Shown here: piece after piece, positions 59,818-64,000 of the stretch
Numbering within the stretch: position 1 is the first letter of the stretch
How the letters are laid out: each line of letters opens with the position of its first letter
Source of the DNA: Synechococcus sp. PCC 7335
GTDB lineage: Bacteria > Cyanobacteriota > Cyanobacteriia > Phormidesmidales > Phormidesmidaceae
Reading direction: 5' to 3'
NCBI RefSeq assembly: GCF_000155595.1
Contig: NZ_DS989904.1
Coordinates: 3,862,786-3,926,785, forward strand
DNA length: 64,000 bases
Notes under the pieces: generated by a model
What the model was told of the DNA's origin: nothing
The model's database searches: none
Seen by the model: the letters and a program-made list of their open reading frames with translations, nothing else
Program-made: the position numbers and the translations under genes

Positions 59818-59836
59818 TGACTGAACCGTTCGGTCA
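59818..59836. promoter_or_regulatory. TetR operator site 1
   Basis: TGACTGAACCGTTCGGTCA is a near-perfect 19-bp palindrome, 43 bp upstream of the fusion gene start. It matches sites at 60025 and 60082 in sequence, so it is a likely operator for the divergent TetR protein. Confidence 0.75.
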
Positions 59837-60024
59837 TTATTGAAGGTATTAGTTGCCTTGCATGGGTTTACTCCCACGTTCTATACCCAAAACAATAGAA
59901 AGATCATAGAATCCTAGAAAAACGATCTCACAGGAGGTCAAGAGCTAGAGCTTTTGTTTCCTATGTGAACCTGATCCTTCACAAATAGACAGTCTATGTA
60001 CGTTCATCCGTATATAACACGGTA

Positions 60025-60043
60025 TGACTGAACTGTTCAGTCA
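60025..60043. promoter_or_regulatory. TetR operator site 2
   Basis: TGACTGAACTGTTCAGTCA is a perfect 19-bp palindrome (central T). It lies 68 bp upstream of the tetR start and shares the consensus of sites 1 and 3. Confidence 0.8.
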
Positions 60044-60081
60044 CCATTAATTGATAGCGCGCATGGTAAGATATTGTCAAA

Positions 60082-60100
60082 TGACTAAACAGTTCAGTCA
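60082..60100. promoter_or_regulatory. TetR operator site 3
   Basis: TGACTAAACAGTTCAGTCA, one arm mismatch from perfect, ends ten bases before the tetR ATG and abuts the AGGA ribosome site. Binding here would block tetR transcription or initiation, as expected for autorepression. Confidence 0.75.
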
Positions 60101-60110
60101 GGAAAATTAG

Positions 60111-60734
60111 ATGGCAACTCCGCTTTCAGTTGATGTGAACAGTCCTAAAGCTCAGCAGATTCTAACGGGTGTACGTGACGTCTTCCTTGATATGGGGTAT
60201 GAAGGTGCTAGCACCGATAAGCTTGCTCGTGCTGCTGGTGTATCGAAAGGAACGCTGTACAATTACTTTCCTGATAAAGAAACGCTCTTTATCGCCTTCG
60301 TTGAAGGGGAGTGTCGTAAACAGGCAGCGTTAATCTTTAAGGTTAAGGATCAATCCGCTGATATTGAAACCGTACTACGAGAGATTGCCTACAACTACGT
60401 AAAAATGTGTCCGTCCGCTTTTATCCAAGGCCTCTACCGGCTCGCCTTAGCAGAAGCCACTCGCTTTCCAGCTCTAGCGCGCACGTTCTACGACTCTGGC
60501 CCAGACTTAGCTTCACGTCGGATGGTTCAGCTATTAGCAGGCGCTGTTGCTAAAGGAGACTTGAAAATTGACGATTTAGACATGGCGGCACATCACTTTG
60601 CCCAGCTCTGCAAAGCCGATTTGTTTGAGAAGTGTCTCTTTCAAGTCAAGCTTTCTGTAACGCCAGAAGAAATTAAACGAATTGCAAATAGCGCCGTTGA
60701 TGTTTTCTTAAGGGCTTATCGCGTGTGTAGGTAG
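60111..60734 (+). CDS. TetR/AcrR-family transcriptional repressor
   Basis: 207 residues. The N-terminal HTH is clear (AQQILTGVRDVFLDMGYEGASTDKLARAAGVSKGTLYNYFPDKETLF, recognition helix near 43-53); the rest is the helical ligand-binding and dimerisation domain. TetR repressors leave DNA when they bind a small molecule. It is divergent from the glutaredoxin-AhpD gene, with three copies of one palindrome between the genes, so it likely represses both itself and the fusion enzyme. The inducer is unknown; a thiol-reactive or oxidant compound would fit the target. Confidence 0.92.
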   Translation: MATPLSVDVNSPKAQQILTGVRDVFLDMGYEGASTDKLARAAGVSKGTLYNYFPDKETLFIAFVEGECRKQAALIFKVKDQSADIETVLREIAYNYVKMCPSAFIQGLYRLALAEATRFPALARTFYDSGPDLASRRMVQLLAGAVAKGDLKIDDLDMAAHHFAQLCKADLFEKCLFQVKLSVTPEEIKRIANSAVDVFLRAYRVCR

Positions 60735-62244: not shown

Positions 62245-62280
62245 GTGTTTTTAGCTAAATTTTTATCAACTGATTGTGAC

Positions 62281-62294: not shown

Positions 62295-62468
62295 AATGGC
62301 CTCTCACCATCAGAGGTATTCTCACCACTAGCTATCCCTTAACTGTAGCTCGCTACTTCCCTGATTTGGTATCGTGCCATTTAGTCTTATCATGTCTTCT
62401 TATCTCATACCATAAACAGTTTTGATTAGACTGCTGTATTCTCCTAACTTACGGCGTAATAATTGCAT

Positions 62469-62851
62469 TTAGTCGGCTATTAGATTGCTGTTGGGTTCAG
62501 CCTTAAATGTCCACAGCTGATTAAGTACTTGGTCACTAGTCATAATCTGAATGGGATGCTTCATAAGGTATCTCAGCAATAAAAACTCTTTCCAAGTGAG
62601 TTCAACGTATATCTGTTCTTCATCTTAGAGAATTGGAAGAACAGATATACGTTGGTCGCAACTAAGTAGCAATTTCCCAACGCATTTCCAATGTGTATTT
62701 GCGTAGTCTTAAATGCAGGCTCAAATTCAGATGACCGCCTTCTAAGCGCCCTGAGCCTTGCAAATAGCTCAGAATCATCAGCAAGCAAAACTCCCATAGA
62801 TTTCCTCTCGTCAAGTTTCGCTGCGATTACAGGTATCAACAGATTACTCAT
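62469..62851 (-). pseudogene. Remnant of an OmpR-family response regulator
   Basis: In one frame from 62851 there is the end of a receiver domain (IPVIAAKLDERKSMG, then LADDSELFARLRALRRRSSEFEPAF), with the lysine-bearing KPF loop apparently deleted. In another frame, 62469 to about 62630, lies the winged helix start (VELTWKEFLLLRYLMKHP, then SDQVLNQLW), which stops early at TAA. The N-terminal phospho-Asp half is absent. Both frames read the same strand, so a frameshift joins them near the 19-bp inverted repeat at 62603-62654. It is a decayed regulator, perhaps of the adjacent copper oxidase; no kinase gene is beside it. Confidence 0.7.
62603..62654. repeat. Perfect 19-bp inverted repeat in the response-regulator remnant
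   Basis: CAACGTATATCTGTTCTTC (62603-62621) is the exact reverse complement of 62636-62654, with a 14-base loop. It lies where the reading frame of the regulator breaks, and may be an insertion or a folded scar. Confidence 0.85.
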
Positions 62852-62882: not shown

Positions 62883-62914
62883 AGCATAAACTCTATACCT
62901 AACTTCAAGGTCAA
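62883..62914 (-). promoter_or_regulatory. MerR-type promoter A
   Basis: On the minus strand TTGACC (62909-62914) and TATGCT (62883-62888) are 20 bp apart, the long spacer typical of MerR-activated promoters. It aligns with promoter B at 63485-63516 and points at the response-regulator remnant. Confidence 0.65.
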
Positions 62915-63032
62915 GCGATATTAAAAGAAGGAAAAGTTTATGCCCAGTTGAAAACACTTGGACACAGAATAGATACAACAGAAAATAGTATGGCAATCTG
63001 AAGCTAGAATGATTTTTTTCACTGGTTCAAGC

Positions 63033-63455
63033 CTACGAATCTAGTGGAATCTTTTCAATGAGAGGACAAATATCTCCGGGTTGAGGATGTGGTTTAGAGG
63101 CAGCCCAGCTATCTCGATATTCTACAAGTCCCTTCTTAAACGACTTCATTTCCTTGATCTGAGCCTCGATCTTCTCAATTTTTTCTTGCAGAATTGATTG
63201 CACTAAATCGCAGGGCATATCTCCTTGCTGATGCGCATTTAGCACTTCGCTAATATCTTCTAATGTAAATCCTAAAGACTGAGCTCTCTTTACAAACTGA
63301 ACCTGTCGCACCGCTTCTGGAGGATAATAGCGGTAACTATTCTCTCCACGCTCGGATTCGAGTAAGCCTAACCTTTCGTAATAGCGCAGTGCACCTACTG
63401 CCACACCGGTTTGCTTAGACACTTCGCCAATTTTTAATCGTGTTGAAACGGCCAT
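63033..63455 (-). CDS. MerR-family metal-responsive regulator
   Basis: 140 residues from ATG 63455 (AGAGG upstream; a TTG at 63476 would leave almost no leader behind the promoter). HTH LKIGEVSKQTGVAVGALRYYERLGLL, then RYYPPEAVRQVQFVKRAQSLGFTLEDI, a dimerisation helix and a C-terminal metal loop. Cysteines C82 (GDMPCDL) and C130 (GDICPLIE) match the positions used by heavy-metal sensors of the MerR/ZntR/PbrR group; the middle cysteine is absent. It probably senses a metal ion such as copper, zinc, cadmium or lead and activates promoters A and B. Confidence 0.92.
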   Translation of the reverse strand: MAVSTRLKIGEVSKQTGVAVGALRYYERLGLLESERGENSYRYYPPEAVRQVQFVKRAQSLGFTLEDISEVLNAHQQGDMPCDLVQSILQEKIEKIEAQIKEMKSFKKGLVEYRDSWAASKPHPQPGDICPLIEKIPLDS

Positions 63456-63484
63456 CTTCAACTGCCTCTTCGTCAACTGTTTCT

Positions 63485-63516
63485 ATCGTAAACTCTCTAC
63501 CAAGCTATAAGGTCAA
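63485..63516 (-). promoter_or_regulatory. MerR-type promoter B, upstream of merR
   Basis: TTGACC (63511-63516) and TACGAT (63485-63490) are separated by 20 bp on the minus strand. Aligned with promoter A, the spacers share GGTAnAGAGTTTA-type bases. Transcription would start some 20-25 bases before the merR ATG, so the regulator is likely autoactivated. Confidence 0.7.
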
Positions 63517-63685: not shown

Positions 63686-64000
63686 ATGACTCACCGTTTC
63701 TCCAAATTCAAGATATTTGTGGTCGGTTTAGCGGCAGTCAGCTCAGTGCTAGCTGGCTGTACGGCTACCAACAATGCGCGAATGGGGTCATCACCGCAAG
63801 AGATTATGGCTACTCAGGCGGCTGTGATCGGCGAAATCACTGTTTTTCGTAGTCCTACTTGCGGGTGCTGCGGTCAGTGGATAGAGCACGCCGAGGCCGC
63901 TGGCTTTAAGGTTAAAGATGAGATCACCGAAGACATGAGTGCAATTAAGCAACAGTATGGTGTTCCTACGAATCTGAGCTCATGTCATACAACGGTAGCC
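63686..64000 (+). CDS. DUF411 metal-binding lipoprotein (C-terminus beyond right edge)
   Basis: 105 codons are in the window and the frame is open at the end. ATG 63686 has AGAGG upstream. A lipoprotein signal (FVVGLAAVSSVLAGC, Cys near residue 23) is followed by DUF411: ITVFRSPTCGCCGQWIEHAEAAGFKV, EDMSAIKQQYGVP and the start of the SCHT motif. DUF411 proteins are periplasmic and usually lie in copper or silver resistance clusters. It is divergent from merR, sharing a 230-bp control region. Confidence 0.88.
   Translation, partial: MTHRFSKFKIFVVGLAAVSSVLAGCTATNNARMGSSPQEIMATQAAVIGEITVFRSPTCGCCGQWIEHAEAAGFKVKDEITEDMSAIKQQYGVPTNLSSCHTTVA

Follow-up and report, generated by a model that had tools for sequence, protein, structure and literature searches.

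Copper-responsive MerR-family regulation is exemplified by the CueR regulon of Escherichia coli (copA, cueO), in which the gene for a Cu+ P-type ATPase and that for a multicopper oxidase both lie behind promoters with over-long spacers. Sites of the HMRTR subfamily, which includes Cyanobacteria, are 22-bp palindromes within spacers of 19–20 bp; their centres are 8 bp away from the −35 box, and they adjoin the regulator gene and metal-resistance genes; the part of that study considered here gives motif statistics for HMRTR sites, without experiment on a cyanobacterial copper regulon (PMC5045206). In Cyanobacteria, the MerR-family regulator CoaR/CorR controls the P1B ATPase gene of CoaT (cobalt), two-component systems of the CopRS/NrsRS kind occur in Synechocystis, and copper control is described through CopRS of that organism (PMC4284471). 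Our literature search found no experimental report of a MerR-type copper activator in Cyanobacteria.

We analysed a locus of Synechococcus sp. PCC 7335 (genome G000) in a stretch of 64 kb (the window). We consider it likely that three sites, O1, O2 and O3, are operators of one MerR regulon of the copper type, that the locus has a history of deletion, and that O2 now serves a multicopper oxidase gene. The features concerned are listed below.

63516 to 63485, minus strand: O1, predicted MerR-type promoter/operator of merR (−35 TTGACC, 20-bp spacer, −10 TACGAT)
63455 to 63033, minus strand: merR, 140 aa (Pfam MerR_1 and MerR-DNA-bind)
62914 to 62883, minus strand: O2, second predicted MerR-type promoter/operator (−35 TTGACC, 20-bp spacer, −10 TATGCT)
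62797 to 62401, minus strand: remnant of an OmpR-type (RppA/NrsR/CopR-like) response regulator (tblastn against intact relatives, and reading frames)
62244 to 60787, minus strand: CueO-like multicopper oxidase (MCO), 485 aa, intact (three Pfam Cu-oxidase domains)
63686 to 64000 and continuing past the window end, plus strand: DUF411 (CopG-like) lipoprotein gene (Pfam PF04214 on the full gene)
G000:C1:3927263-3927294, equivalent to window positions 64478-64509, plus strand: O3, third site, from the genome-wide pattern search

The locus resembles the CueR regulon in its MerR-family regulator and in the over-long spacers before Cu+ P-type ATPase and multicopper oxidase genes, but its spacers are 20 bp and its operators 22 bp long, whereas those of CueR are 19 and 21 bp, and merR here has its own operator. 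Its likeness to the HMRTR subfamily lies in the site geometry and in the placement of sites beside the regulator and metal-resistance genes. Like CoaR, the regulator is a cyanobacterial MerR-family protein associated with a P1B ATPase gene; unlike CoaR, which has a precorrin-isomerase domain and responds to cobalt, it carries no extra domain. A response regulator of the CopRS/NrsRS kind gave rise to the dead gene that follows O2. The regulator-kinase pair has been lost here; where relatives have it, a MerR-type promoter precedes it.

The preliminary description of this DNA had reported two MerR-type promoters with 20-bp spacers on the same strand, one of them belonging to merR, and both points are borne out, with exact coordinates. 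O1 (TTGACCTTATAGCTTGGTAGAGAGTTTACGAT), whose spacer TTATAGCTTGGTAGAGAGTT is flanked by TTGACC and TACGAT and whose 22-bp operator is ACCTTATAGCTTGGTAGAGAGT, lies 29 bp ahead of merR. O2 (TTGACCTTGAAGTTAGGTATAGAGTTTATGCT), with the spacer TTGAAGTTAGGTATAGAGTT between TTGACC and TATGCT, begins 118 bp past the end of merR and is oriented through the dead response regulator gene towards the multicopper oxidase gene. The two sites agree at 25 of 32 positions. Bare hexamers (TTGACC-N19/20-TANNNT) were rejected as proof of sites; with three matches in the window against 0.94 expected the pattern is too weak, so a motif learned from other genomes was used instead. The scoring matrix, derived from an ungapped alignment of 40 merR promoters in relatives' genomes and without any contribution from this one, gave 31.2 bits for O1 and 30.1 bits for O2. 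The runner-up in the 64 kb, which is O1 read in reverse, scored 12.7 bits, and 20 dinucleotide shuffles peaked at 13.9 bits. Genome-wide, sites were counted with a pattern search and not with a matrix scan: the 32-bp pattern, with at most two mismatches, matched O1, O2 and O3 and nothing else, and matched nothing in controls. The 20-bp spacer is common to these three sites and to the 40 aligned sites of relatives, and the palindromic operator lies within the promoter spacer, as in the MerR family, and is centred at a distance of 8 bp from the −35 box, the same geometry as that of the 22-bp MerR/HMRTR sites. On sequence grounds, we conclude that O1 and O2 are real MerR-type promoters of one regulon, at which MerR would bind and activate transcription, and that O1 is the predicted autoregulatory promoter of merR.

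O3 lies about 480 bp past the window end and 81 bp ahead of the start codon of a gene encoding a 756-aa heavy-metal P-type ATPase. This protein scores 660 on the copper model TIGR01511 (cut-off 397) and also passes the cut-off of the cadmium family, with a lower score. A cupredoxin gene, whose assignment was confirmed by domain search, follows it, and the DUF411 gene, divergent from merR, is positioned between merR and O3. Relatives of the genus likewise carry such operators ahead of the genes for the Cu+ ATPase and the multicopper oxidase. A common inducing metal for O1 and O2, as in the preliminary description, is a reasonable expectation, and copper is our favoured inducer, a preference drawn from the gene content of the regulon. 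By analogy with other MerR systems, a MerR dimer would occupy the over-long 20-bp spacer and repress transcription, and metal binding would cause the dimer to untwist the DNA and align the −35 and −10 boxes. O1 would then provide autoregulation of merR, and copper, probably as Cu+, would co-induce the sensor, the ATPase with its cupredoxin, and the oxidase, as in a CueR-like copA/cueO regulon.

We called sites among relatives with an iterated matrix, at a score of at least 20 bits and within 400 bp upstream of a gene. Such a site precedes 42 of the 56 merR genes examined, against 35 of 727 unrelated ORFs; many of these 35 are divergent merR neighbours that share the palindrome, and some encode glutaredoxin-MauE fusion proteins. 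All five testable loci of CopA orthologues have a site ahead of the gene, and within the genus copA is preceded by one in G002 (two copies), G003, G004, G005 and G006. Close MCO orthologues divide evenly, with a site within 400 bp in five of ten and none in the other five, although one of the latter belongs to a copA operon that has a site ahead of it. Sites precede MCO orthologues in G001 and G005 (both weak), G002, G003 and G010. Response-regulator orthologues have a site ahead of them in 3 of 12 cases.

Two further observations concern these relatives. In G006, no merR orthologue was detectable, though sites are kept (L148, L154, L160, L166), before copA and before a small redoxin-like gene; these could be orphan sites or reflect an assembly gap. 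This case, like the MCO orthologues that lack a site, counts against the proposed regulon. In the distant relatives at L051, L083, L085 and L087, a glutaredoxin-MauE fusion of about 280 aa is divergent from merR and shares the same operator; this fusion is a recurrent regulon member that is missing from the present locus.

The response-regulator remnant begins with an ATG at 62797 and its first 8 residues, followed by an in-frame loss of about 99 receiver residues. It resumes near receiver residue 108, then shows a frame change and internal stops, and ends in a truncated C-terminus, with homology to the DNA-binding domain stopping at 62401. No kinase was found after it at the locus, and orthologues of the relatives' regulator, kinase and RND pump are absent from G000 (best matches 40%, 40% and 31%). 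Intact relatives of the regulator in five genus members are 67–75% identical. The name CopR was considered for the dead gene and rejected: the model matched by its intact relatives is RppA, and that matched by the kinase is RppB, as seen for both proteins of G003. RppA/RppB is the NrsRS nickel system of Synechocystis. The remnant also contains a perfect 19-bp inverted repeat with a 14-nt loop (62603 to 62654, minus strand; −34.7 kcal/mol in a 121-nt context, z −4.2), predicted to fold into a strong hairpin in RNA made from O2; it resembles an inverted duplication of adjacent regulator sequence and disrupts the reading frame.

A broken response regulator behind the second promoter, explained by gene loss or by a new role for the transcript, had been part of the preliminary description. 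The gene is indeed broken, and loss is the right reading because intact regulator-kinase pairs stand behind sites of the same type in relatives (G003, G005 and G008), directly so in G003 and G005, where a DUF411 gene adjoins. A new role for the O2 transcript need not be invoked, as the site faces an intact oxidase gene beyond the remnant. The oxidase is the next intact gene on the O2 strand, a point that the same description did not make. Its best NCBIfam model is CueO, with a score under the cut-off of that model, and it is 77–87% identical to its genus orthologues. These have their own upstream MerR site in all four genus members examined (G001, G002, G003 and G005), with weak scores in G001 (23.6 bits) and G005 (20.9 bits).

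The closest view of the ancestral arrangement comes from Cf. Phormidesmis sp. LEGE 11477 (G002), in which a 56-bp island that includes the site follows merR and is 80% identical. One contig of this draft genome carries merR, a site 543 bp from the merR start (541 bp here) and an APC-type permease gene that runs to the contig end; a second contig begins inside that permease gene, after which come the regulator, the kinase, the RND pump genes, a site and MCO. The fuller order would therefore be merR, site, permease, regulator, kinase, RND pump, site and MCO, pieced together across the two draft contigs. This arrangement bears directly on whether O2 arose by chance or as a recent, functionless duplicate of the merR promoter. 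The spacers of O1 and O2 are identical at 15 of 20 positions, as a duplicate would predict, but the second site of G002 stands equally far from the merR start, so O2 was present before the two species diverged, and site-like scores are absent from the shuffles; we regard a chance or duplicate origin as extremely improbable. O2 would instead be the former promoter of an operon with a metal response regulator and its kinase. Judging from the draft assemblies of relatives, one or more deletions between regulator and oxidase most likely occurred in this lineage and would have taken the stretch of permease, kinase and RND genes, leaving the dead regulator fragment. Homology to the regulator stops at 62401 and homology to the region upstream of the oxidase starts at 62275, and the intervening 125 bp have no match in any relative compared. 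We looked between O2 and MCO for any trace of a MerR site belonging to the oxidase and rejected the best candidate, at −15.6 bits; because nothing there scores above this value, the deletion would also have removed that site.

Since the orthologues have their own MerR sites and no other such site lies here, a retained O2 promoter is to be expected, and O2 most likely now drives MCO, through predicted read-through along a leader of about 630 nt that contains the remnant and the 19-bp hairpin. The broken regulator gene is probably not the relevant target of O2. The competing view is that O2 is a fossil, at which MerR still binds and from which a dead-end RNA runs into the remnant, while the oxidase depends on an unrelated adjacent promoter. 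The death of the regulator behind O2, the hairpin interrupting the leader, and the unmatched 125 bp between remnant and oxidase (62401-62275) all fit such a fossil. Against it, O2 scores on a par with O1, and nothing else after merR forms a conserved island; a search of the stretch between O2 and the oxidase gene detected neither terminator-like sites nor sigma70-like sites on the minus strand; and the oxidase is intact, with MerR sites at its genus orthologues; we judge a fossil O2 to be quite improbable. Transcription of the oxidase gene from O2 is the simplest way to account for a strong regulated promoter being kept before a dead gene. Against this reading stand the length of the leader and its strong hairpin, which could affect transcript stability or read-through. 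With such a history, the locus would offer a clean example of a deletion that swaps one promoter of a regulon for another, so that the target gene keeps its regulator.

The identity of the metal is where the protein and its targets point in different directions. MerR passes the Pfam cut-offs for MerR_1 and MerR-DNA-bind, has the N-terminal winged helix and dimerisation helix of the family, and matches Bacillus MerR, CadR and CueR in the PDB. It falls below all NCBIfam equivalog cut-offs tested: MerR (Hg) at 89.8 against 150.9, CueR (TIGR02044) at 80.6 bits against 147.4, ZntR at 79.9 against 168.0 and CadR-PbrR at 83.3 against 151.5. Relatives 58–78% identical occur across the family, and 114 of 143 genomes have some match at E ≤ 1e-15. 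Cys82 and Cys130 are invariant in all aligned relatives. They align with Ser77 and Cys120 of CueR, respectively, and an equivalent of Cys112 is absent from MerR and every aligned relative, so that of the Ser77/Cys112/Cys120 metal site of CueR only the Cys120 counterpart is present. With Ser77 replaced by Cys and Cys112 lacking, copper is assigned to this sensor from the content of the regulon.

If the main inducer were a divalent metal (Zn, Cd, Pb, Ni or Co) instead of copper, this would fit the match of the lost regulator-kinase pair to the RppA/RppB models of a nickel system. The pass of the ATPase on the cadmium-family model also counts against copper. The products of the genes behind the sites speak against a divalent inducer: the ATPase fits the copper model TIGR01511, the oxidase resembles CueO, and a cupredoxin and a DUF411 protein accompany them. 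Cys82 is the usual divalent signature, since Ser77 marks sensors of monovalent ions and Cys at that position marks sensors of divalent ions, yet the three-Cys set of divalent sensors is incomplete in MerR, and a response to copper is reported for the CadR of Rubrivivax as well (PMC11591864). Given both the Ser/Cys rule and a copper-responsive CadR, the metal is not readable from the protein alone, and we hold a mainly divalent response to be unlikely. More tentatively, and with less than even odds, MerR may belong to a cyanobacterial branch of sensors for copper efflux whose metal site differs from that of CueR. It would consist of Cys82, at the dimer-helix position, and Cys130, in the C-terminal loop, and may bind Cu+ across the dimer interface, with self-activation, and with an oxidase recaptured through a deletion-made fusion to the neighbouring MerR promoter. 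Some interest attaches to the uncommon pair of cysteines and to the exchange of promoters, and a three-site regulon with a conserved operator allows a direct test of whether a MerR protein with a 'divalent' Cys senses copper.

Paralogues of MerR were considered as users of O1 and O2 and rejected: three loci with 29% identity and a fourth, weaker relative have no such operator nearby. The three (L002-L004, at G000:C2:678428, C3:1529 and C3:214776) have equal scores against merR, and two of them lie close to the ends of C3, a small contig.

Elsewhere in the window, the palindromes TGACTGAACTGTTCAGTCA and TGACTAAACAGTTCAGTCA occur at 60023-60099, with a similar half-match near 59818. They sit between a TetR gene (60111-60734, plus strand) and a divergent glutaredoxin-fusion gene (59877 to 58132, minus strand), and are probable TetR operators, as is the half-match. 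The fusion gene encodes 581 aa with an N-terminal glutaredoxin domain, the remainder having no Pfam match at the default threshold.
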